Assembly (NCBI RefSeq): GCF_017498525.1
Contig: NZ_CP071796.1
Coordinates: forward strand, 3,658,001-3,722,000
Origin: Ottowia testudinis
Lineage (GTDB): Bacteria; Pseudomonadota; Gammaproteobacteria; Burkholderiales; Burkholderiaceae_C
DNA length: 64,000 nucleotides
Reading direction: 5' to 3'
In this document: piece by piece, positions 11,814 to 41,910 of the stretch
How the letters are laid out: each line of letters starts with the position of its first letter
Numbering within the stretch: the stretch's first letter is position 1
Notes under the pieces: generated by a model
Told to the model about the DNA's origin: nothing
Seen by the model: the letters and a program-made list of their open reading frames with translations, nothing else
Database searches by the model: none
Position numbers and translations under genes: made by a program

Positions 11814-12569
11814 TCAGATCAGCGGCACCTGCCGCATCGGCCGGGCGTGATAGTCCGCCATGCGTTCCAACGCCTTGAGTTCCAGCAGGCGCAGCCGCCC
11901 GGCCTTGATCTCGTGCAGGCCGATGCGCTCCAGCTTGCGCAAGGTCTTGTTGGTGTGCACCAGCGACAGGCCCAGCGCGTCGGCGATGTGTTGTTGCGTG
12001 AGCGGAAAATCCACCGCACCCTGCGCGTCGACGTGGCCCAGCCGCTCGGCGCGGCGCCACAGGTGGATCAGCAGCATGGCGATGCGCTCGGCCGCCGCCC
12101 GCCGGCCGACGGTGACCAGGTTGTCGTCCACCAGTTGTTCCTCGCGGGCGCACAGCCAGGTCACGTTGTAGCCCAGGCGCGGCTGCTGGCTGAAAATGTC
12201 CCACAGCCGGTCGTGGCCGAATACGCACAGCTGCGTGTCGGTCAGCGCCTCGACGCCGTGCGTGGCATCGTCGGTGAACTCGCCCTGCAGCCCGATGAAG
12301 TCGCCCGGCAGCAGAAAGTTGAGGATCTGGCGCCGCCCGTCGGCCAGCGTCTTATAGCGAAACGCCCAGCCGGCGTACAGCGTGTACAGCCGCGGCGACA
12401 CATGGTGTTCGGCAATGATGGCGCGGCCGGCGGCCACCGCTTGCACCGTTTGCCGGCACGACTGGATGAAGCCCAGCTCGTCGAGCGTGACGGGCAGAAA
12501 ACAGGGCAACTGGCGCAGCCGGCAGTCGGCGCAGGCCCTGGGCGGTGGGGTGGAGGCATCGGTTTTCAT
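11814..12569 (-). CDS. Crp/Fnr family transcription regulator, FNR-like cysteines
   Basis: A 251-residue regulator: N-terminal cysteine cluster, cyclic-nucleotide-binding-like beta roll (about 40-130), dimer helix and C-terminal HTH (LTQQHIADALGLSLVHTNKTL). Cys13, Cys16 and Cys23 (C-x2-C-x6-C), with Cys115 in TDTQLCVFG, are placed like the four [4Fe-4S] ligands of FNR (C-x2-C-x5-C plus one in the beta roll). An oxygen- or redox-sensing role is therefore possible, though the spacing differs by one residue. Flanked by TetR genes on the same strand with no overlap, so probably its own transcript. Confidence 0.88.
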   Translation of the reverse strand: MKTDASTPPPRACADCRLRQLPCFLPVTLDELGFIQSCRQTVQAVAAGRAIIAEHHVSPRLYTLYAGWAFRYKTLADGRRQILNFLLPGDFIGLQGEFTDDATHGVEALTDTQLCVFGHDRLWDIFSQQPRLGYNVTWLCAREEQLVDDNLVTVGRRAAAERIAMLLIHLWRRAERLGHVDAQGAVDFPLTQQHIADALGLSLVHTNKTLRKLERIGLHEIKAGRLRLLELKALERMADYHARPMRQVPLI

Positions 12570-21191: not shown

Positions 21192-21233
21192 CGAGCGCTT
21201 TGAAGACATGCTCGCTTCGCCGGCGTGTTGCCT

Positions 21234-21605
21234 TCAATGTGGGGACCCGGCCATCGCCTTGAGCTGCTGGCGCAGCGCGCGGCGCCCGGCGGCGTTGGTG
21301 GCACGCCAAGCGGCCAGGGCCAAATCCAGAAACGCTTGCTCGGCAGCGCTCGGGCCGCTGGCGGAGCGCAACTCATCAAGCCAGCCGGTGGATCGATCGC
21401 AAAGCGCCTCAATCTGCCGCGCCAGCTTGTCACCGATCGGGCGCGATGATTTGATCTGGCTCCACATGCTGGGCGAGATTTGCAGCGTGGCTGCAAACGC
21501 CTGCTCCAGCCCCTTGGGCGGCGCGCCGGCGGCCAGCTGCTTTTCGGCATAGGTTTGGAACAGCGCCAGCACGTTCTGGCGGCGGGTCACGGTGAGGTTG
21601 GACAC
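21234..21605 (-). CDS. lambda-repressor-like HTH regulator, small
   Basis: About 123 residues with a central HTH (LEQAFAATLQISPSMWSQIKS) and the motif SRPIGDKLARQIEALCDRSTGWLD, similar to Xre/CI-type regulators common in Burkholderiales. Two GTG starts are possible (21632 or 21605); neither has a clear ribosome site. I prefer 21605 (VSNLTVTRRQN) because 21632 would leave a leader of only a few bases after the predicted promoter. A promoter and a perfect 15-bp palindrome lie just upstream, consistent with autoregulation. It borders the tRNA-array island. Confidence 0.75.
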   Translation of the reverse strand: MSNLTVTRRQNVLALFQTYAEKQLAAGAPPKGLEQAFAATLQISPSMWSQIKSSRPIGDKLARQIEALCDRSTGWLDELRSASGPSAAEQAFLDLALAAWRATNAAGRRALRQQLKAMAGSPH

Positions 21606-21645
21606 GAAAGTGTTTTGTTGACTCGGCACCACAGCCGAAAAAAAG

Positions 21646-21674
21646 ATTGTCGCCGCGCTTGACCGCGGAGTAAA
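21646..21674 (-). promoter_or_regulatory. promoter of the HTH regulator, overlapping an operator palindrome
   Basis: Minus-strand TTTACT (21669-21674), 17-bp spacer, GACAAT (21646-21651). The -35 overlaps the palindrome at 21670-21684. Confidence 0.5.
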
Positions 21675-21684
21675 GACTCTTTAC
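21670..21684. promoter_or_regulatory. candidate operator, perfect 6-3-6 palindrome
   Basis: GTAAAGACTCTTTAC has two perfect 6-base arms around a 3-base centre, placed across the -35 of the HTH regulator promoter. It could bind the regulator's dimer. Confidence 0.5.
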
Positions 21685-21746
21685 AGTCCATCCCATCGCC
21701 CATTCAGGGCTTTTTGCAACCTCCAAGAAATTTTCAAGGCTTCATC

Positions 21747-21941
21747 GTGAAAACCGCATTCGTCACCACAGCGCGCACCGGCTTCGGCCGGGCGGTGGCG
21801 TGCGTGCGCGGCGGTTTTGCCAAGCCCCATCACGCCATCGGCAGTTGGCAAGCCAGCAAGCGACCCATGGGCTGTGCCCAGGGATATCTGCAGCTTGATC
21901 CGCGCGAGAACACCATTCTTCCGGGGGAGGGCCACACGTAA
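21747..21941 (+). CDS. small protein of unknown function, 64 residues
   Basis: GTG-initiated frame preceded by CAAGG at about -10, with GC-rich third positions like neighbouring genes. The product starts VKTAFVTTARTGFGRAV and ends DPRENTILPGEGHT. No family recognised and no membrane segment. It is divergent from the HTH regulator and is followed by hairpins and a strong terminator, so a short independent transcript is likely. Confidence 0.45.
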   Translation: MKTAFVTTARTGFGRAVACVRGGFAKPHHAIGSWQASKRPMGCAQGYLQLDPRENTILPGEGHT

Positions 21942-21961
21942 AGCGTGCGCCCTCCAAGCCA

Positions 21962-22026
21962 GGCACCTGCGCACAGGTGCCCCAAGGCGGCCCGGAATCC
22001 GAAAGGTTCCGGGCCGTTTTGTTTTT
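21962..22026 (+). terminator. tandem hairpins with a rho-independent terminator
   Basis: First hairpin GGCACCTGCGCACAGGTGCC (21962-21981). The terminator proper is CGGCCCGGAA / TTCCGGGCCG around a 9-base loop (21988-22016), followed by TTTTGTTTTT. It ends the small 21.75-kb transcript. From here to 22358 I see no gene and no convincing promoter. Confidence 0.8.
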
Positions 22027-22358
22027 CAACCTTCAACCTGAGTGGGGTGATCACACCGCACCTGCCTCGCCCGATGGCGCGGCACCGATCTTTAACAAAA
22101 CAGAGCAAGGCTGGCCCGCATCTGGACGGTTCACAGCCTTGCAAAGAAAAAGGCGAAGCGCTGGTACTGCGTGATGAATGCGCGCGGCAAACAGCACTTC
22201 GCCCCACTTCGGGTGTGCCCACGCACTCCGTTTGCCGCATTTGCATGGTGTTGGCGGCGCGGGATGTGCGCGGCGCCGACGGGCGCCACGTGCAGCGATA
22301 CACCGCATCCGACGGGATGCTCGCGCGCGGGCACAGCCGAAGTGGAATTTCGTATTTG

Positions 22359-22435
22359 GCCCCGGTGACGGAACCGGCATACGTCCCTGTCTCAGACACA
22401 GGGTTTTGGGAGTTCGAATCTCCCCTGGGGCACCA
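22359..22435 (+). tRNA. tRNA-Leu(CAG) with a shortened variable arm
   Basis: 77 nt with encoded CCA. Acceptor GCCCCGG/CTGGGGC pairs fully, T arm GGGAG/CTCCC, anticodon loop CTCAGAC (CAG). The D arm (ACG..CGT, loop GAACCGGCATA) is of the leucine type, but the long variable arm required of bacterial tRNA-Leu is missing and only about five bases remain. First gene of the array. Confidence 0.8.
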
Positions 22436-22441
22436 GCTTTT

Positions 22442-22533
22442 GGAGCGTTGGCCGAGTGGCCCAAGGCAACGGTTTGCTAAACCGTGACCGCATCTGACGC
22501 GGTCCGCTGGTTCGAATCCAGCACGCTCCGCCA
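22442..22533 (+). tRNA. tRNA-Ser(GCT)
   Basis: 92 nt, acceptor GGAGCGT/ACGCTCC, loop TTGCTAA (GCT), long variable arm (GACCGCATCTGACGCGGTC), encoded CCA. It looks functional. Confidence 0.92.
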
Positions 22534-22548
22534 GTTTTTTCAGATTTT

Positions 22549-22624
22549 GGGGATGTAGCTCAATCGGGAGAGCGCCTGCCTTGCACGCAGGAGGTTGCGG
22601 GTTCGAAGCCGGCCATTTCCACCA
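22549..22624 (+). tRNA. tRNA-Ala(TGC), degenerate second copy
   Basis: 76 nt, anticodon TGC in CTTGCAC, encoded CCA. Acceptor GGGGATG/CATTTCC has two G-U pairs and the T stem GCGGG/CCGGC contains a G-G mismatch. It differs clearly from the rrn tRNA-Ala at 1707-1782. Confidence 0.85.
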
Positions 22625-22632
22625 GTTTTCGC

Positions 22633-22708
22633 CACGGTTTAGCTCAGTAGGTAGAGCGCTTGCTTTGGGAGCATGAGGCCGAAGGTTCGAGACCTTCAAC
22701 CGTGACCA
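22633..22708 (+). tRNA. tRNA-Pro(TGG)
   Basis: 76 nt, acceptor CACGGTT/AACCGTG (C1-G72, as in bacterial tRNA-Pro), loop TTTGGGA (TGG), encoded CCA. One mismatch in the anticodon stem (position 28-42). Confidence 0.88.
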
Positions 22709-22715
22709 GTTTTTT

Positions 22716-22792
22716 GTCGTGTTCGTCTAGCCGGCCCAGGACAGCGTGTTTTCAACTCGCCAACGGGGGTTCGAATCCCCCACACGACGCCA
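22716..22792 (+). tRNA. tRNA-Glu(TTC)
   Basis: 77 nt, acceptor GTCGTGT/ACACGAC, D region TCGTCTAG typical of tRNA-Glu, loop TTTTCAA (TTC), encoded GCCA. The anticodon stem GCGTG/CTCGC has one T-T mismatch. Confidence 0.88.
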
Positions 22793-22800
22793 GTCCGCCT

Positions 22801-22876
22801 GCTTCGTTAACTCAGCGGTCAGAGTGCCGGCCTGTCTAGCCGGAAGCCGCGGGTTCGAATCCTGCACGGGGCGCCA
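22801..22876 (+). tRNA. tRNA-Asp(GTC)
   Basis: 76 nt, acceptor GCTTCGT/ACGGGGC with two G-U pairs, anticodon stem CCGGC/GCCGG, loop CTGTCTA (GTC), encoded CCA. A second, interrupted tRNA-Asp lies at 23521. Confidence 0.88.
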
Positions 22877-22887
22877 TTTTTTTCAAT

Positions 22888-22963
22888 ATCTCGGTAGCTC
22901 AACCGGCAGAGCAACGGCCTCCAAAGCCGAAGGTTGAGGGTTCGACTCCTTCCCGGGATGCCA
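22888..22963 (+). tRNA. tRNA-Trp(CCA)
   Basis: 76 nt, acceptor ATCTCGG/CCGGGAT, loop CTCCAAA (CCA), G discriminator as in tRNA-Trp, encoded CCA. Anticodon stem position 27-43 is an A-A mismatch. Confidence 0.88.
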
Positions 22964-22973
22964 ATTCTTATAT

Positions 22974-23211
22974 GCCCCGCTGGCGCAATGGATCAGCGCA
23001 CCAGTGTCGCGTTGCGCCTGAGATGTCGGATGGCCGCGCTGTGATCGGCGCGCAGCGCAAGGCGCAGACCGCAGCCAAGGCTGAATGCCTTGGCAAGGAC
23101 TGCAACGCCGCGATGCGTGGCGAGCACAAGCGGACACCGGCAGATCAGGTGCGACGCGACACTCAACTACGAAGTCGGGGGTTGCAGGTTCGAGTCCTGC
23201 GCGGGGCGCCA
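22974..23211 (+). pseudogene. tRNA-Arg(ACG) interrupted in the anticodon arm by a ~161-bp palindromic element
   Basis: The 5' part (22974-23002) gives acceptor GCCCCGC, D stem GCGC/GCGC and the first two bases of the anticodon stem. The 3' part (23164-23211) resumes with loop CTACGAA (ACG), T stem GCAGG/CCTGC, acceptor GCGGGGC and GCCA. Removing 23003-23163 leaves exactly 77 nt with a cloverleaf, though the anticodon stem has two mismatches. Unless the insert is removed from the RNA, the gene is inactive. Confidence 0.75.
23003..23163 (+). mobile_element. MITE-like palindromic element inside tRNA-Arg
   Basis: 161 bp with imperfect 23-bp terminal inverted repeats beginning AGTGTCGCGTTGCGCC on the left and AGTGTCGCGTCGCACC on the right (complement). 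The centre (about 23055-23110) contains the core GCAGCCAAGG..CCTTGGCAAGGA.TGCAACGCCGC shared with the other elements of this window. No ORF. No target duplication is obvious. Confidence 0.65.
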
Positions 23212-23220
23212 CATTCTTAT

Positions 23221-23301
23221 AGCGCGGTAGCCAAGTGGTCGAAGGCAGCGGCTTGCAAAGCCGTTCATTCATCGCGAGTTCGAATCTCGCCCGCGCTTCC
23301 A
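23221..23301 (+). tRNA. tRNA-Cys(GCA)
   Basis: 81 nt, acceptor AGCGCGG/CCGCGCT, loop TTGCAAA (GCA), U discriminator as in tRNA-Cys, encoded CCA. The variable loop is longer than usual (about nine bases). Confidence 0.85.
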
Positions 23302-23333
23302 CTCTTTCACTCACTCACCTCAAGGAGAACCGC

Positions 23334-23513
23334 ATGCGCAAGCAGCAAACCGCCGTGCCGGCGGCTCATCCGGCCGAGCCCAAGGCTCACGCACCTTCCG
23401 CAATTCGCGTGCTGCGAACGACGGCACGGCTGTGGCTGCCCGCCGCGTTGCTGCGGCCCAAGCCGCCAAGCGTGCCGCTCGACGAGCGCGTGCGCCGCGT
23501 CGGCGAATGGTGA
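23334..23513 (+). CDS. small basic protein of unknown function, 59 residues
   Basis: ATG 23334 is preceded by AAGGAGAA at ideal spacing. The product MRKQQTAVPAAHPAEPK.. is Arg/Ala/Pro-rich and ends VRRVGEW. No known family recognised. It sits between tRNA-Cys and the interrupted tRNA-Asp, so it may be co-transcribed with the array. The strong ribosome site argues for expression. Composition matches neighbouring DNA. Confidence 0.5.
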   Translation: MRKQQTAVPAAHPAEPKAHAPSAIRVLRTTARLWLPAALLRPKPPSVPLDERVRRVGEW

Positions 23514-23520
23514 TGTTCAT

Positions 23521-23758
23521 TGCCCGATAGCTCAGTCGGTAGAGCGCCTGGCTGTCGAGGCAACACTGAACAAGTCCTCGCGGCGCTGGCACCTGTTGAT
23601 TTGTGCGGTCTGCGGCGTTGCAAATCCTCGCCATAGCGCGGGCTATGGCTGTGGTTTGCGCCTTGCATCCCATCCCAAACCACAGCGCCAGCATCCACGG
23701 GACTTGCTCAGCGTTGCCTGCAAGGTTGTCGGGGGTTCGATCCCTCCTCAGGCAGCCA
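23521..23758 (+). pseudogene. tRNA-Asp(GTC) interrupted at the anticodon loop by a ~160-bp palindromic element
   Basis: The 5' part (23521-23558) gives acceptor TGCCCGA, D arm GCTC/GAGC, anticodon stem CCTGG and full loop CTGTCGA (GTC). The 3' part resumes at about 23719-23721 with CAAGG, T stem GGGGG/CCTCC, acceptor TCAGGCA and GCCA. The joined RNA would be 76-78 nt. The break falls between positions 38 and 39, right after the loop. One acceptor and one anticodon-stem mismatch. Confidence 0.75.
23559..23718 (+). mobile_element. MITE-like palindromic element inside tRNA-Asp
   Basis: 160 bp with terminal inverted repeats of consensus GGCAACRCTGARCAAGTCC. Nearly the same 160-bp sequence occurs at 41175-41334. 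Its complement contains the core GGCGAGGATTTGCAACGCCG shared with the tRNA-Arg insert. No coding capacity. Confidence 0.8.
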
Positions 23759-23769
23759 TCTCTTTCAAC

Positions 23770-23847
23770 GGTGTCCATGGCGCAGCAGGTCAGCGCGTCG
23801 GGTCGTGACCCCGAAGGTCGCCGGTTCGATCCCGGCTGGACACCCCA
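23770..23847 (+). tRNA. tRNA-His(GTG)
   Basis: Acceptor GTGTCCA/TGGACAC with the extra 5' G (23770) opposite C73, the identity pair of tRNA-His. Anticodon stem TCGGG/CCCGA, loop TCGTGAC (GTG), encoded CCA. Position 33 is C instead of the near-universal U. Confidence 0.85.
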
Positions 23848-23853
23848 TCGTTT

Positions 23854-23928
23854 TGTCCGATAGCTCAGCGGTAGAGCGCTGCCCTCATAAGGCAGGGCGC
23901 GGTGGTTCGAATCCACCTCGGACAACCA
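23854..23928 (+). tRNA. tRNA-Met(CAT), elongator or Ile2 type
   Basis: 75 nt, acceptor TGTCCGA/TCGGACA, anticodon stem CTGCC/GGCAG, loop CTCATAA (CAT), encoded CCA. It is not an initiator: 1-72 is paired and the three G-C pairs of initiator tRNA are absent. Lysidine-modified Ile2 cannot be excluded. Confidence 0.87.
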
Positions 23929-23939
23929 GTTCTTTTCTT

Positions 23940-24016
23940 GCGCGCTTAGCTCAGCAGGCCAGAGCACCCGGCTTTTAACCGGATGGTCCGAGGTTCGAAT
24001 CCTCGAGCGCGCACCA
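23940..24016 (+). tRNA. tRNA-Lys(TTT)
   Basis: 77 nt, acceptor GCGCGCT/AGCGCGC, loop CTTTTAA (TTT), encoded CCA. Anticodon-stem end pair 27-43 is a C-A mismatch. Confidence 0.9.
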
Positions 24017-24023
24017 CATTCAC

Positions 24024-24099
24024 CGGGGCATAGCTCAATTGGTAGAGCAGCGCACTTTGAATGCGCAGGTTGAAGGTTCGAATCCTTCTGCCCTTGCCA
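24024..24099 (+). tRNA. tRNA-Gln(TTG)
   Basis: 76 nt, anticodon stem GCGCA/TGCGC, loop CTTTGAA (TTG), encoded GCCA. The first acceptor pair is C-T, so 1-72 is open. Confidence 0.85.
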
Positions 24100-24138
24100 C
24101 TTCATTTGACCGTCAACGGCCGCGAAAGGAGGCCCGCC

Positions 24139-24717
24139 ATGCCAACCCATTGCTACAGCCAAGTGCTGCAACTCGACATCCAGGGCACGCCGCAGGCGTG
24201 GATCACGCTGGAGCAGGCCGCCACGCACGTGGCCCGCGAGGCCGTGGCCTGGTTCGAGGGCGGCGGCGCGCCATTGGCGGTGTTGCGCGGCGGCTTCAAC
24301 GTGGCGCGCGGGCGGCAGTCGGTGATCGAGGTGCCGCCCATCATCGCGTTGCATGGCGCGGCGCAGGTGAATTTGTTCGACATCGTGCCGGCCGTGACCA
24401 AGCCCAAGCTGCTGCGCCGCGACCGCCACACCTGCGCGTATTGCGGGCTGGTGCATGCCGAGCGCGACTTGCAGTGCGAGCACATCGTGCCCGCCTCGCG
24501 CGGCGGCGCGTGGAACTGGATGAACCTGGTCACCGCCTGCGCGGCGTGCAACGGCCGCAAAGCCAACCGCACGCCGGACGAGGCAGGCATGCCGCTGGTG
24601 TACCTGCCCTACGTGCCCAGCCGCTTCGAGAGCTTTCTGCTCGAAGGCCGCCGCATCCGCGCCGACGTGCACGAGTGGCTGGCCCTGCGGCTGCCAAAGC
24701 ATTCGCGTCTGAATTGA
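24139..24717 (+). CDS. HNH endonuclease
   Basis: A 192-residue protein with a C-terminal HNH domain. Zinc-type pairs CAYC (near residue 98) and CAAC (near 135) flank CEHIVPASRGGAWNWMNLVTA, whose core is CEHIVPASRGG; the His and Asn of the fold are present. ATG 24139 is preceded by AAAGGAGG at good spacing. It lies inside the tRNA array between tRNA-Gln and a tRNA remnant. HNH proteins of this type are widespread single genes in Burkholderiales. A role in mobility of the array or in nucleic-acid defence is speculation. Confidence 0.88.
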   Translation: MPTHCYSQVLQLDIQGTPQAWITLEQAATHVAREAVAWFEGGGAPLAVLRGGFNVARGRQSVIEVPPIIALHGAAQVNLFDIVPAVTKPKLLRRDRHTCAYCGLVHAERDLQCEHIVPASRGGAWNWMNLVTACAACNGRKANRTPDEAGMPLVYLPYVPSRFESFLLEGRRIRADVHEWLALRLPKHSRLN

Positions 24718-24884
24718 CCTTGCCGATTCACGCGCGTCAACGCATCTGCTGCGAAAAGCGGAACGCTCACAGGTCAGGGGTTGGCGGTAAAGCCGCGCCC
24801 CGCCGGTGCGTGGCGCCCCGTTTCTGAACGGGTGGTGGCCACGTGTGCCGCGCCGCTGGAAGCAGTTGATACGGACGATCAATG

Positions 24885-24930
24885 GTTGCACCGCTTGCGG
24901 TGCCGGGTTCGAGTCCCGGGTCGCCCGCCT
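24885..24930 (+). pseudogene. tRNA 3'-half remnant
   Basis: T arm CCGGG TTCGAGT CCCGG followed by an acceptor-like GTCGCCCG and CCT instead of CCA. I cannot find a matching 5' acceptor (expected about GGGCGAC) in 24718-24885, so it is a fragment whose identity cannot be assigned. The rest of 24718-24931 shows no gene. Confidence 0.45.
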
Positions 24931-24931
24931 G

Positions 24932-25006
24932 TTATGGATAGCTCACGGGTAGAGCAGCGAATTCTTAATTCGTCGGTCGCAGGTTCGACTCCTGCTCCAT
25001 AAGCCA
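24932..25006 (+). tRNA. tRNA-Lys(CTT)
   Basis: 75 nt, acceptor TTATGGA/TCCATAA, anticodon stem GCGAA/TTCGT, loop TTCTTAA (CTT), encoded GCCA. Last gene of the array. The following 25007-25371 has no recognisable gene, only a short inverted repeat (GTTGCCAC..GTGGCAAC near 25182-25213) and a small palindromic repeat near 25297-25330. Confidence 0.87.
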
Positions 25007-25371
25007 AACCGGTCGAAAGACCACCCCGCCGAACGCGGCGTGCGCAGTGCGCGTGGTGCGCCATGGCCGGGGCCTTTGTGGCCCCGTGTTGCTGGAAAGC
25101 ACCGCGCGCACCCGCGGCGCCGTCAGCCTGGCCGCTTCGTGCCCGGGCCACTCACGGCGGGCGCACACGGCCAGCGGCGCCGTTGCCACTCGCCCTGAGG
25201 CAGTGGCAACAGCCCCGCGCACCGTGCCCGCCCCCGCCGTGCCACCCGAGCCCGCGGCCAATGCTGTAACGGCAACCCGATTACTCTCAAATCAATAGCT
25301 ACCTGCGCAAACCTGGCAAGCGCAAAACCCTGATTTGGCTTCAAACCACGCTGCAACCCAAGGAGAACAAC

Positions 25372-26508
25372 ATGAAACTCAAGCGTGTCACCGTCAAGAA
25401 AAACGAGCGCGGCCTGCTGCTGCGCAATGGCGATTTCGATCGCGTGTTGCAGCCCGGCACGCATTGGCTTTTCGACGGCTTCGATGCCCTGCGCGTCGAA
25501 ACCTTCGCCATCGAGCAAACCGCCTTCACGCACGGCCTGGCCGACTACCTGATGGCCAAGGAGCCCGAGGTGGTCGCGCGCGAGTTCGTGCGCGTGGACT
25601 TGAGCGAAACGCAAGTAGGCCTGCGCTTTGAAGACGGCGTGCTGGTCGAACTGCTGGCGCCCGCCACGCGCCGCCTGTACTGGAAGGGCCTGCGCGAGGT
25701 GCGTGTGGAAGTGATCGACATCAGCGCCACGCCTGAGCTGCCGCCCGATCTGGTGCAGCGCCTGACGCAAACGCAACTGCGTTCGCGCCCCGTCGCCGGC
25801 CTGGCCGGCGTGCTGCACGTGCAGGTGCCCGAACACGGCGCCGGCGTGCTGTGGATCGACGGCAAGCTGGATCGCCTGCTGCCGCCCGGCAGCCACGCGT
25901 TCTGGAAGTTCGGCCGCAACGTCGTGGTCGACAGCGTCGACCTGCGCCTGCAAGCGCTGGAAGTCACGGGTCAGGAAATCCTGACGCGCGACAAGGTGGC
26001 GCTGCGCCTGAACCTGCTGGCCACCTGGCGCTTTGCCGACGTGCTCGCGGCCTTCACCCAATTGCAAAAACCCGCGGAACACCTGTACCGCGAGCTGCAA
26101 CTGGGCCTGCGCGCGGCGGTGGGCACGCGCTCGCTCGATGAACTGCTGGAGAACAAGGCCGTCATCGACGAGGTGGTGACCGCGCACGTGACGGCCAGGC
26201 TGGCGGCCTTCGGCCTGGTGCTGGAAAGCGTCGGCGTGAAAGACATCGTGCTGCCCGGCGAGATGAAGACCATCCTGGCGCAGGTGGTCGAGGCCGAGAA
26301 AGCCGCGCAAGCCAACGTGATCCGCCGCCGCGAGGAAACGGCGGCCACGCGCTCGCTGCTCAACACGGCGAAGGTGATGGAAGGCTCGCCCCTGGCCTGG
26401 CGCATGAAAGAGCTGGAAACGCTGGAACGCGTGGCCGAGCGCATCGACAAGATCTCGGTGGTCGGCGGGCTGGATCAGGTGCTGAATGGGTTGGTGAAGC
26501 TGCGTTGA
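25372..26508 (+). CDS. slipin family (SPFH/Band 7) protein
   Basis: A 378-residue protein with two SPFH-like modules: residues about 1-120 (VKKNERGLLLRNGDFDRVLQPGTH core ERGLLLRNGDFDRVLQPG) and about 145-340, where EHGAGVLWIDGKLDRLLPPG repeats the same pattern, followed by band-7 sequence and a helical C-terminus. There is no clear transmembrane segment, unlike classical stomatins. Strong ribosome site AAGGAGAA before ATG 25372. Slipins of this long form are, to my knowledge, recurrent neighbours of rtcB/rtcA RNA-repair genes, which fits the RtcB remnant 1 kb downstream. Molecular role unknown. Confidence 0.88.
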   Translation: MKLKRVTVKKNERGLLLRNGDFDRVLQPGTHWLFDGFDALRVETFAIEQTAFTHGLADYLMAKEPEVVAREFVRVDLSETQVGLRFEDGVLVELLAPATRRLYWKGLREVRVEVIDISATPELPPDLVQRLTQTQLRSRPVAGLAGVLHVQVPEHGAGVLWIDGKLDRLLPPGSHAFWKFGRNVVVDSVDLRLQALEVTGQEILTRDKVALRLNLLATWRFADVLAAFTQLQKPAEHLYRELQLGLRAAVGTRSLDELLENKAVIDEVVTAHVTARLAAFGLVLESVGVKDIVLPGEMKTILAQVVEAEKAAQANVIRRREETAATRSLLNTAKVMEGSPLAWRMKELETLERVAERIDKISVVGGLDQVLNGLVKLR

Positions 26509-26518
26509 GCGGCTGTGT

Positions 26519-26617
26519 GCGGTAGGTTGGTGCCCCGCGCAGCGAAACCCAACAAACGCGGTTGATCGTGAGCCGCCGAGTGTTGGGGTTCATTGCATTC
26601 ACCCCAACCTACCGGGC
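26519..26617. repeat. GTAGGTTGGG-type inverted repeat after the slipin gene
   Basis: CGGTAGGTTGGTGCCCCGCG is answered by CCCCAACCTACCGGG about 75 bp later, so the whole stretch can fold back. A shorter relative (GTAGGTTGGGATGAACGCAG) lies at 54458-54490. It may act as the transcription end for the slipin gene. Confidence 0.55.
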
Positions 26618-26665
26618 TTCCATCATGATTGACGCACAGAGCGGCCTCTTCAAAAGCAAAATCGC

Positions 26666-27466
26666 ATGTCGAACGGATGGAACCCCGGCCGTCGCAACCG
26701 CCATGCCGGCACGGCGGCGCACGGCCATGGTCAAGACAACGTCATGGTGATCCCTGATCCGACCCGGGGCCGCTTGGCGTATTTCGAGCAACTGGGCGCG
26801 CCGGTCAACGTGCATCGGCGTATCGCTGGCACGCCGATGCGATTTTTCGTCGAGGAGCCGCTACAGGGTTCGTTTTATCCCTGCACGATCGATGACATCT
26901 GCACCTTGTTGACGCATTGCCCGTTGGACGACTGGAAAACGGTCGATTTCGTGGTGCTGCGCCAACCCACGCGCAAACAACGTACGCTGAGCCCGGTCTG
27001 GGGGCGCGCCATCTTCCATTACGACGGCGTTTGCGCCCCAGGCCCTGCGGTGGTGCTGGAGGCGCAAACGCTGGCGCCGTTCAAATGGCCGCGCGAATTG
27101 TCACCGGACAGCGCGCGCGAACTTGACCGGTTGCGCACCGACGGACACGATGTCCAGTTTGAAAGACGCCACTGGTGCATTACGCCAACGGCCCAATCGC
27201 TGCGGTACACCATGCTTTATCGAACGCTGCTGCATGAGATTGGCCATCACGTTGACTATGCAAACGATCTGGTCAGCGATCTGCCGTGGAGTCGTCATAC
27301 GCATAAGCGCAAGGAAGACTTCGCACACCGCTACGCCCATGATGTTTTTGCTCGCTTGAAGGCACAAGATGTATTGCCATTTCCACGCCAGTTGAACGAA
27401 GCAACTTTGACCGCTGAAGGCTTGTCACCGGAATGGTTTGAGCCGCCGCTCATGTCGCCTTTCTAA
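26666..27466 (+). CDS. zincin-like putative metallopeptidase of unknown family
   Basis: A 266-residue soluble protein whose only clear motif is HEIGHHVD near residue 189, a zincin HExxH with a further acidic residue. It is preceded by LRYTMLYRTLL, and a downstream HRYAHDVFARLK could supply the third ligand. No signal peptide, so presumably cytosolic. The start is uncertain: ATG 26666 or ATG 26744 (MVIPDPTRGR). It lies between the slipin gene and the RtcB remnant, so it is probably part of the same former operon. Activity is inferred from the motif only. Confidence 0.7.
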   Translation: MSNGWNPGRRNRHAGTAAHGHGQDNVMVIPDPTRGRLAYFEQLGAPVNVHRRIAGTPMRFFVEEPLQGSFYPCTIDDICTLLTHCPLDDWKTVDFVVLRQPTRKQRTLSPVWGRAIFHYDGVCAPGPAVVLEAQTLAPFKWPRELSPDSARELDRLRTDGHDVQFERRHWCITPTAQSLRYTMLYRTLLHEIGHHVDYANDLVSDLPWSRHTHKRKEDFAHRYAHDVFARLKAQDVLPFPRQLNEATLTAEGLSPEWFEPPLMSPF

Positions 27467-27502
27467 ATCAATTCTGGAGCAGGAAAATTCAAATTTCATA
27501 GC

Positions 27503-27535
27503 TGTTCGCGCTTGCCAATCAAGCGCCAGCGGCAC
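27503..27535 (+). repeat. dispersed small palindrome, TAGCTG..GCGCTTG family
   Basis: ATAGCTGTTCGCGCTTG, loop, CAAGCGCCAGCGG. Lies directly upstream of the RtcB remnant. Confidence 0.65.
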
Positions 27536-27557
27536 TTTCCATTCAAGGAAGTTTGTC

Positions 27558-27776
27558 ATGGAGCCCAATCACATTCACCACGACATCCCCGGCGCCATGC
27601 TGTTCACCCTGGCCCACCACCGAGCCGCCACCGCAGGCGTGGAGTGCCGCAAGGATGAGGACATGATCGACGAGACGCCCGCCGCCTACACGGACATCAA
27701 CGCCGTGATGGCCGCGCAAAGCGACTTGGTGGAGGTGGTGCACACGCTCAAGCAGATGGTGTGCGTGAAGGGGTGA
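27558..27776 (+). pseudogene. rtcB: RtcB RNA ligase, C-terminal remnant
   Basis: A 72-codon frame. From residue 15 on it reads as the RtcB C-terminus: TAGVECRKDEDMIDETPAAY, then INAVMAAQSDLVEVVHTLKQ, ending MVCVKG. These match the end of E. coli RtcB (VECRKD..IDE..AY.DIDAVMAAQSDL..VVCVKG). RtcB is about 400 residues, so some 350 N-terminal residues, including the metal- and GMP-binding centre, are missing. The first 14 residues (MEPNHIHHDIPGAM) are unrelated. An AAGGAA ribosome site precedes the ATG, so a short peptide might still be made, but ligase activity is impossible. A terminator follows. No rtcA or rtcR is present nearby. Confidence 0.85.
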
Positions 27777-27796
27777 TGCGCCCTACGGCAGCATTC

Positions 27797-27826
27797 AGCG
27801 CCCGTTGAAAGACGGGCGCTTTTTTT
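27797..27826 (+). terminator. rho-independent terminator after the rtcB remnant
   Basis: AGCGCCCGT / ACGGGCGCT stem with a 6-base loop (27797-27820), followed by a run of T. It marks the 3' end of the island's plus-strand transcript. Confidence 0.85.
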
Positions 27827-27852
27827 GTGCTCGTCCAACCATTCAATCAAAA

Positions 27853-27892
27853 ATCATAGCTGCTCGCGCAAGCCGTACAAGCGCTGCAGCCC
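27853..27892 (+). repeat. dispersed small palindrome, TAGCTG..GCGCTTG family
   Basis: ATCATAGCTGCTCGCGCAAG, loop, CAAGCGCTGCAGC. Between the island terminator and the GST gene. Confidence 0.6.
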
Positions 27893-27960
27893 AATTCATG
27901 TGGTAGTTGTGGCGGCCTGAATACCTTTGAACGCAAAGCACGCAGCCGCCGGCAAAACGC

Positions 27961-41160: not shown

Positions 41161-41174
41161 CGTTTTTGGCGTAA

Positions 41175-41334
41175 GGCAACGCTGAACAAGTCTTCGCGGC
41201 GCTGGCATCTGTGGATCTGGGCGGTCTGCCGCGTTGCAAATCCTCGCCATGGCACCGGCTATGGCTGCGGTTTGCGCCTTGCATTCCATTCCAAACCACA
41301 GCGCCAGCATCCACGGAACTTGCTCAACGTCGCC
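41175..41334 (-). mobile_element. 160-bp MITE-like element, copy of the tRNA-Asp insert
   Basis: Same length as 23559-23718 and nearly the same sequence, with terminal repeats GGCAACGCTGAACAAGTC and the complement of CTTGCTCAACGTCGCC. It abuts the stop codon of the second yceI gene, between the two yceI genes. No ORF; flanks (TAA left, TCA right) show no exact duplication. Confidence 0.8.
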
Positions 41335-41910
41335 TCAAATCTTTCCGACGCCCGTCAGCACCAGCTTGAAGCGCACTTGCACCTCGTCGGCCACCATCGA
41401 GGTGTCGGCCCATTCCTCTTCGCCGATCTTGTACGCCAGCCGCTTGATGACGAACTGCCCGCTGGCCGTGGTCTTGGCGCCGCTTTGCACCAGCTGCACC
41501 GGCACCACCACGCCCTGCGACTGGCCCTTGATGGCCAGTTGCCCCGCCACCTCGAACTTGCCGCCGCCCAGCGCCTTCACGCTTTTGGACTGGAACGTGG
41601 CCTGCGGAAACTTGGGCGTGTTGAACCAGATCGGCTTGGGCAGCTCGGCGTCGGTCTCTTTCACGCCCAGCGTGGCGCTGCCGGTGTCCACGGCGAAGTT
41701 GATCCTGGCGGCCTCGGGCTTGGCGGGGTCGAACGCGACCTGCGCGCTGAATTTGCCGAAGTGCCCCTCCACCGGCACGCCCATCTGGCGGCTGACGAAG
41801 TGGATGCTGCTTTCGGCCGGCACCAGCTGCTGCTGGGCCAGCGCCGGCGCGGCGGCCAGCAAGGCCAGCGACGCGGCAAGCGAAAGACGGGAAAGGGATC
41901 GAATCGACAT
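41335..41910 (-). CDS. YceI family periplasmic protein
   Basis: A 191-residue paralogue with signal peptide (AASLALLAAAPALAQ) and YceI pattern: ESSIHFVSRQMGVPVEGHFG, FAVDTGSATLG, FNTPKFPQATFQSKSVK, GQLAIKGQSQGVVVPV. ATG 41910 follows AGGA. This and the cytochrome b561 gene upstream are a common pairing, suggesting a shared role in quinone handling. The TGA stop directly adjoins the 160-bp element. Confidence 0.92.
   Translation of the reverse strand: MSIRSLSRLSLAASLALLAAAPALAQQQLVPAESSIHFVSRQMGVPVEGHFGKFSAQVAFDPAKPEAARINFAVDTGSATLGVKETDAELPKPIWFNTPKFPQATFQSKSVKALGGGKFEVAGQLAIKGQSQGVVVPVQLVQSGAKTTASGQFVIKRLAYKIGEEEWADTSMVADEVQVRFKLVLTGVGKI

Follow-up and report, generated by a model that had tools for sequence, protein, structure and literature searches.

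Among the closest described systems are the tRNA array units of Mycobacterium, which in PMC5966550 and PMC12803027 are dense, redundant clusters covering most amino acids, with an HNH gene in the array and with plasmid-borne copies. XRE and HNH genes are found in approximately 87% of the arrays of mycobacterial group G2 (PMC5966550, PMC12803027), and the arrays have been termed a putative antidefense system (PMC12803027). In Anabaena, TrcR represses a silent trn operon of 26 tRNAs, together with rtcB, a slipin gene and an HNH gene, with expression being raised by translational stress (PMC10272220). In Salmonella, tRNA fragments activate the rtc operon (PMC7790460), and phage tRNAs have been proposed to evade tRNA-targeting defences by means of mutations in the anticodon loop (PMC10264068). 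Here we analyse a locus of Ottowia testudinis that carries a tRNA array, an HNH gene, a slipin gene and the remains of rtcB. It lies at positions 21234–27826 of a stretch of 64,000 nucleotides, called here the window (C1:3658001-3722000 of a single-contig genome of 4.32 Mb; genome G000, locus L044). We describe it as one copy, partly decayed, of a tRNA-array and RNA-repair island that recurs in Burkholderiales and appears to be repressible.

The window is like the mycobacterial arrays in having a redundant, dense tRNA cluster with an HNH gene inside it. Mycobacterial plasmids carry relatives of the window HNH, with 24 tRNAs and a helix-turn-helix gene in Mycolicibacterium CBMA 213. It is unlike them in its repair genes: RtcB is not named in the main texts of PMC5966550 and PMC12803027, and neither slipin nor RNA ligase is named in that of PMC12803027. 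With the Anabaena regulon the window family shares a tRNA array, rtcB, a slipin gene and an HNH gene, and relatives of the window HNH also adjoin 20–23 tRNAs on three Nostoc plasmids. However, TrcR is a ribbon-helix-helix (RHH) protein, whereas the window regulator has no Pfam RHH match and is predicted to be all-helical; and the genes of the Anabaena regulon are scattered, whereas those of the window family form one locus. With the operon of RtcR, RtcB, RtcA, Rsr and Y RNA there is RtcB in common, and in eight of nine rtcR-type loci a slipin gene lies in the same stretch as rtcB. The window locus differs in having no RtcR or RtcA match, and in having a putative different regulator and a sigma70-type promoter in their place.

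Burroughs and Aravind (2016) are said to have noted a Band-7 protein, a tRNA-like non-coding RNA and RtcB together, and their RNA may overlap with the one called RNA-3 below. These SPFH modules resemble the window, in which the Band-7 protein stands beside the tRNA-like RNA-3, and differ from it in that they are not known to include the array, the HNH gene, RNA-1 or RNA-2. In the literature searched, which left subscription papers mostly outside, we found no account that places array, RtcB and slipin together at a single locus, and no paper on an SPFH protein, RtcB and a tRNA-like RNA together. Mycobacterial arrays with XRE and HNH genes, and the TrcR regulon of Anabaena, are already known. 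New, as far as we have searched, are the coupling to RtcB in one locus, the control region, and the three RNAs.

The island recurs in Burkholderiales, its parts being a small protein predicted to fold like Cro/C1 (Xre) repressors, a promoter palindrome, a terminator, a boxA site, RNA-1, the tRNA array, an HNH gene, and RNA-3 with slipin. RtcB or slipin is part of it in fewer than half of the testable loci. Slipin relatives were found in 20 of 250 genomes of the family, O. testudinis included, and the loci of the other 19 were fetched for comparison. Ten of these (L025–L032, L034 and L036, of which L025 is from the same genus) have an array, and all ten carry a full-length rtcB downstream of slipin. 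The regulator has orthologues in nine of the ten (53–72% identical), and the HNH gene is present in all ten (66–86% identity). In the remaining nine loci there is no array; rtcR faces slipin, and in eight of the nine the stretch includes rtcB. In L033, RNA-1 is found at 12380–12518 in a rtcR-type locus that has no regulator or array, possibly a hybrid of both architectures.

Starting from RNA-1 only, a search of the same 250 genomes gave 39 places in 34 genomes. Of these, 38 are within 5 kb of a high-scoring regulator and 22 are within 8 kb of an array-type HNH; 38 of 44 high-scoring regulators have RNA-1 within 5 kb. Thirteen of the 17 places without HNH were fetched, and in six of the thirteen the regulator and RNA-1 are joined by rtcB and by no more than one tRNA. 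In 369 genomes of the class, with strict filters, RNA-1 was found only in O. testudinis itself. A further scan used an HNH alignment against named genomes, with the best 80 of 538 confirmed loci retained. With four duplicate loci excluded, the regulator is present in 58 of the 64 loci covered for at least 4 kb upstream, and among the 63 covered for at least 4.5 kb downstream, 24 have RtcB within 8 kb, 17 have slipin, and 28 have at least one of the two. The full unit of array, RtcB, slipin and regulator-palindrome pair occurs in named isolates, these being Albitalea terrae (L055, the same locus as L031), Pelomonas sp. Root1444 (L117) and Rhizobacter sp. Root1221 (L104, whose stretch excludes the start of the locus, i.e. 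the regulator slot).

In the window itself, rtcB is reduced to a stub of 72 amino acids (27558–27776, forward strand). An earlier note on this DNA, written from the sequence without database searches, had read the end of this frame as the C-terminus of an RtcB lost by internal deletion, and had looked to relatives with a full rtcB beside slipin and array. Both points are borne out. The stub matches PF01139 positions 372–426 with E = 2.6e-13 (50.4 bits against a cut-off of 27), and its start, MEPNHIHHDIPGA, is similar to the start of full RtcB in relatives; it consists of the first 13–14 or so and the last 57–58 or so codons of RtcB. Compared with rtcB of the relatives, the DNA gives two matching blocks, with the junction near 27600–27603. 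Because RtcB of L025, from its MEPQHIH start, has 405 residues against 72 in the stub, 333 codons are missing at approximately 27600, with the frame kept. A full-length rtcB stands downstream of slipin in G146, of the same genus, and in nine other genomes with arrays. The suggestion that rtcA and rtcR had also been lost from this spot is not supported by the comparison: among the ten array relatives only L031 has both, in a fetched stretch of 19.9 kb. The corresponding 19.9-kb stretch of O. testudinis has no tblastn match to RtcR, RtcA or Rsr, and in the best 80 HNH loci there is an rtcR match in seven and an rtcA match in seven, the rtcR match of L080 being only 38%. RNA repair is not lost from the genome, because an rtcR-rsr-YrlA-rtcB-rtcA locus is kept elsewhere. 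It contains RtcR, Rsr, two YrlA RNAs, a RlaP nucleotidyltransferase, RtcB and RtcA (PF01137, E = 3.5e-75), and its RtcB, at C1:4271628-4272755, is the only intact one of the genome.

The island begins at 21234, upstream of the start at 22359 given in the earlier note, with a protein of 132 residues encoded on the reverse strand (21234–21632), divergent from the array. A structure prediction, from an alignment of the window protein with 42 relatives, is all-helical (predicted local distance difference test score, pLDDT, 85.8; predicted template modelling score, pTM, 0.66). The PDB entries retrieved with it by Foldseek, at weak E-values, are mostly Cro/C1-type helix-turn-helix repressors, led by phage Rep, ClgR, lambda cI, C.Esp1396I and SinR. 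On the basis of this predicted fold we regard the protein as a putative Xre-like regulator.

A sigma70-type promoter, TTGACC-17-TACAGT, reads forward into the array from 21659–21687. It is the single sigma70-like match in 21200–27900, where 1.0 is expected by chance. Inside it lies a predicted palindromic operator, GTAAAGACTCTTTAC (21670–21684), which is a perfect palindrome of a kind expected 0.01 times in the window. Of 73 loci (four of them fetched twice), 64 have its pattern, GTAAAGA-N-TCTTTAC with at most three mismatches, upstream of the regulator; the 80 scanned loci, amounting to 1.14 Mb, contain 71 matches in total. Promoters and terminators were counted at 50 places, hand-picked from the 73 at which RNA-1 was found. 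The strict palindrome is present in 41 of them; in 40 of the 41, TTGAC stands 11 or 12 nt before it, and in 35 a terminator lies between it and RNA-1. In the window this intrinsic terminator has 17 pairs and a T-run (21983–22021, forward strand). It is followed by a boxA-like antitermination site, CGATCTTTAACAA (22086–22098, forward strand). With a boxA consensus and up to three mismatches, such a site was found within 400 nt upstream at 37 of 72 RNA-1 places, compared to 57 of 1460 random stretches. It tracks the size of the array: of the 33 loci that have five tRNAs or more, 29 carry it, as do 8 of the 37 loci with smaller numbers (Fisher p = 1.7e-8).

Three conserved structured RNAs have been modelled, and the counts of places given for them include the modelled sequences. 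RNA-1 stands ahead of the array (22205–22345, forward strand; 142.9 bits, the window being one of the nine model sequences), and 73 places are found with its model in 97 sources; when the limit is relaxed, antisense shadows of known places appear as well, together with a weak place in L030 that is read on both strands. The RNA-2 model (eight sequences, beside a Glu tRNA in the model loci) finds 62 places, and a search with it gave none in the window. RNA-3 is a multi-helix RNA at 24755–25041 on the forward strand; 24755–24929 scores 141.9 bits with the window in the model, and the alignment runs to 25041. Its model (18 sequences) finds 40 places, which include eight of the nine rtcR-type loci, L040 at only E = 0.009. 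RNA-3 accompanies slipin in loci of both types. RNA-2 and RNA-3 are not present at every locus. For all three RNAs, and by every measure, covariation exceeds that of each of the 500 shuffles and of each slid control, in alignments fitted to the models, which favours the three RNAs.

Within RNA-3 there is a mini-tRNA without a D-arm, i.e. an orphan T-arm/acceptor half, at about 24873–24929. In 39 of the 40 RNA-3 sequences (one has no T-arm) its acceptor strands pair with a mean of 0.872, compared to 0.740 in shuffles (standard deviation 0.016, maximum of 2000 shuffles 0.791). The last module, at 24932–25006, resembles tRNA-Lys(ctt) and scores 61.6 bits as an Rfam tRNA. At Rfam gathering scores only tRNAs are matched in the window array, this last module included, and weaker searches gave sub-threshold matches only. 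With the exception of that module, the three RNAs are not in Rfam. RNA-3 was also considered as a YrlA RNA and this was rejected: it scores 25 bits in the window against a gathering score of 69, while pairs of tRNAs elsewhere in arrays score 21.5–27.

ARAGORN finds 13 tRNAs within 22359–25006 (2.65 kb), and Rfam finds 13 in the same stretch. All are on the forward strand. From the promoter side there are tRNA-Leu(cag) (22359–22435), Ser(gct) (22442–22533), Ala(tgc) (22549–22624), Pro(tgg) (22633–22708), Glu(ttc) (22716–22792), Asp(gtc) (22801–22876), Trp(cca) (22888–22963) and Cys(gca) (23221–23301), then His(gtg) (23771–23847), Met(cat) (23854–23928), Lys(ttt) (23940–24016) and Gln(ttg) (24024–24099), with the last module of RNA-3 beyond them. 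Two further genes, also on the forward strand, are split. The first is tRNA-Arg(acg) at 22974–23211, whose halves are 100% and 95% identical to the intact array Arg(acg) of L025, and which is interrupted by an insert of approximately 161 nt (23003–23163) with inverted arms that are 81% complementary; the intron mode of ARAGORN calls it as Gly. The second, at 23521–23758, is probably Asn from half-by-half matches: the 5' half is 91% identical to Asn of L031, and the 3' half matches weakly, at best 82% to a Phe tRNA. Its palindromic insert of approximately 162 nt (23558–23719) has a second copy at 41174–41335 (90%) and partial relatives elsewhere. The three elements are similar in being approximately 162 nt long and palindromic, in the manner of miniature inverted-repeat transposable elements, two of them lying inside array tRNAs. 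We considered tRNA introns as an explanation of both split genes and ruled them out on the basis of the inverted arms, the long-hairpin folds and the 90% copy elsewhere. Split array tRNAs are also found in L026 (Tyr, Asn) and L027 (Ile), with inserts that are palindromic by eye.

With 13 tRNAs, two split genes and one orphan 3' half, the count of about 16 tRNA genes or fragments in the earlier note is accounted for. Its description of the island as decaying fits rtcB and two tRNAs; the reading frames of the regulator, HNH and slipin are open, and RNA-1 and RNA-3 score like other copies.

The genome has 42 housekeeping tRNAs outside the array, which cover all 20 amino acids without it, and the 13 array tRNAs are 64–77% identical to the housekeeping tRNA of the same isotype. 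In 38 arrays with at least five tRNAs, 393 distinct isotypes are observed against 325.7 expected from random draws, in a count that may include tRNAs from beyond the actual array, L027 being an example. No isotype is repeated in 20 of the 38 arrays. One tRNA per amino acid is therefore a trend and was rejected as a rule, since 18 of the 38 repeat an isotype, most often Arg. In L026, L027, L028, L029, L030 and L031 the array tRNA-His is, by eye, without CCA, and its acceptor stem is seemingly lengthened by complementary flanking bases. A small open reading frame (ORF) lies between the Cys and His tRNAs (23334–23513). L025 has a similar one in the same gap, judged by eye from a shared LDERVR...GEW end, and further arrays have different small ORFs there.

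The HNH endonuclease gene inside the array (24139–24717, forward strand) encodes 192 residues that match PF14279 (E = 3.8e-14) and PF01844 (E = 7.1e-11), with the histidine, the asparagine and four cysteines invariant in 11 aligned rows. Its best named match is from an Ottowia sp. metagenome-assembled genome (L053, 84%), and the best 80 loci come from Ottowia, Variovorax, Rhizobacter, Piscinibacter, Rubrivivax and others, including two from metagenome-assembled genomes labelled Planctomycetota (L054) and Methylotenera (L126). The array-type HNH is distinct from a near-universal paralogue: in the 250 family genomes it is found at 29 places with E of 2.6e-96 or below, with the next at 1.1e-73, while any HNH match at 1e-40 is found in 223. 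The paralogue of O. testudinis is at C1:1314686-1315234, and most family genomes have one. A tblastn search with the HNH protein matched 68 plasmid and 46 phage records. In 18 chosen regions from these, nine have at least seven tRNAs (three from Nostoc, and one each from Mycolicibacterium, Acidiphilium, Frondihabitans, a Salicola phage, Methylibium and Variovorax), two have two tRNAs, and seven have none. The array on the Variovorax RA8 plasmid encloses an RNA ligase (PF09414, E = 3.8e-28; L215, 3659–4720), and that on the Methylibium plasmid encloses an AlkB-type oxygenase and a HD protein (L214, 3194–4546).

Beyond RNA-3, all on the forward strand, are the slipin gene (25372–26508; SPFH/Band-7, PF01145, E = 9.8e-32), an ORF with a HEIGHH motif (26666–27466), the rtcB stub and a terminator of 10 pairs, seven of them G-C (27797–27820, followed by a T-run). 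Slipin, HEIGHH motif and RtcB C-terminus are thus all present in one stretch, as the earlier note had it. A terminator scan by itself proves nothing here, as it finds eight against 8.7 in shuffles. The HEIGHH ORF reaches no family cut-off (the best is PF13678, with 13.6 bits against 23.8) and has no tblastn match in the stretches of the 19 relatives; its slot is occupied by an unrelated ORF in L025 and by rsr in L031. The genes that flank the island are not near the island of G146, which has another location. In G264 and G230 (L182 and L183) the same flanks, a cyclase-like and a GST (glutathione S-transferase) gene, enclose other genes in place of the island, by eye those of an RNA-binding protein and an IF-1-like protein, and these two intervals are 95% identical to one another.

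On balance we lean, if only slightly, towards reading the island at 21234–27826 as a partly decayed copy of a repressed operon, induced by stress, that backs up tRNAs and repairs RNA, and whose repression, induction and antitermination we infer from the sequence. The small protein would bind the palindrome and keep the array promoter repressed as long as the cell is unstressed. A failure of translation or of tRNA integrity would lift both repression and early termination, and boxA/Nus antitermination would carry the polymerase across the long non-coding operon. The array tRNAs would then replace damaged tRNAs and RtcB would reseal RNAs that are broken, while slipin and RNA-3 might serve as a membrane or scaffold part. 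In O. testudinis, rtcB was lost by the in-frame deletion and two tRNAs by inserts, and RtcB could still come from the separate rtcR locus. In favour of this reading are the deletion itself, the palindrome inside the promoter with TTGAC in place, the predicted Cro/C1-type fold, the terminator and the boxA-like site, the closeness of RNA-1 to the regulator, the covariation of the three RNAs, the RtcB or slipin genes downstream of HNH in 28 of 63 loci, the six places with regulator, RNA-1 and rtcB but hardly any tRNA, the complete housekeeping set, the TrcR regulon of Anabaena (PMC10272220), and the RNA ligase and AlkB-type genes inside plasmid arrays.

A number of observations weigh against this. 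The regulator family, in ten members, has no match to a Pfam helix-turn-helix family, and the best Foldseek match has E = 0.038, with none reaching 0.001; because of the absent Pfam match and the weak fold scores, we place the operon reading slightly lower than we otherwise would. Nine of the 50 RNA-1 loci have no strict palindrome, and the boxA-like site is missing at 35 of 72 RNA-1 places. RNA-1 is not always first, since a tRNA, mostly Gly, is found within 600 nt before it in 20 of the 50. The coupling to repair is also incomplete. Neither RtcB nor slipin is near in 35 of the 63 testable HNH loci, 17 of these being Variovorax with one or two tRNAs, and at seven of the 13 fetched RNA-1 places without HNH the regulator and RNA-1 are accompanied by no tRNA array and no rtcB. 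Finally, the present copy has lost rtcB, and so the coupling here is not under strong selection.

The array tRNAs might alternatively be nuclease-resistant replacements or decoys, whose altered anticodon loops escape or soak up anticodon nucleases that rival bacteria or phage defence systems employ, with RtcB repairing the rest. The loops of some isotypes fit this: at least 37 of 39 copies of array Asp are without A37, all 30 copies of Leu(cag) have A37 where the housekeeping tRNA of O. testudinis has G37, and the loops of Glu, His and Gly(gcc) mostly deviate too. The proposed evasion by phage tRNAs (PMC10264068) and the antidefense label of the mycobacterial arrays (PMC12803027) point the same way. 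However, the loops of Arg(acg) (45 of 49), Pro(tgg) (28 of 34), Trp (15 of 15) and Asn (14 of 14) equal those of housekeeping tRNAs, the comparison is to the housekeeping set of one genome, and shared descent of xenologous tRNAs would yield the same pattern of loops. We consider this explanation rather unlikely. It is less likely still that the island is a selfish or drifting mobile element, with tRNAs, HNH and inserts as horizontally moving cargo and the repair genes there by chance. HNH relatives do lie beside tRNA arrays on plasmids of Variovorax, Methylibium, Nostoc and Mycolicibacterium and in a Salicola phage, the location of the island differs in G146, other genes lie between the same flanks in G230 and G264, and two tRNAs of the window are broken by inserts. 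Against this, many genera have the same set of palindrome, promoter and terminator together with the covarying RNAs and the regulator; at 38 of its 39 places RNA-1 lies near the regulator, and RNA-1 with rtcB is found also with at most one tRNA and no HNH.

A further possibility is that the island makes dedicated substrates, either RNA-1 or the tRNA-like modules within RNA-3, and that the regulator or RtcB would read whether these are cleaved or sealed. This would suit the persistence of RNA-1 with the regulator where tRNAs and HNH are absent, the position of RNA-3 beside slipin in both array-type and rtcR-type loci, and the switching on of the Salmonella rtc operon by tRNA fragments (PMC7790460). 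RNA-2 and RNA-3 are not at all loci, however, and we regard a sensor of this type as improbable.

Because a single locus, in named isolates among others, joins the array to RtcB, slipin and a conserved regulator-palindrome pair, the RNA-damage explanation of what long tRNA arrays are for can be put directly to the test. The three strongly covarying RNAs outside Rfam are new molecules in the picture of tRNA arrays. It is possible, if doubtful, that they are new RNA families of a dedicated RNA-damage response, with RNA-1 at the centre as a sensor or scaffold that can be cleaved and that the Cro/C1-like regulator and RtcB read. If this is true, the state of an RNA, rather than a protein ligand, would switch on the whole back-up translation kit. 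O. testudinis provides a natural loss of the locus's own ligase, and its relatives keep the locus whole.

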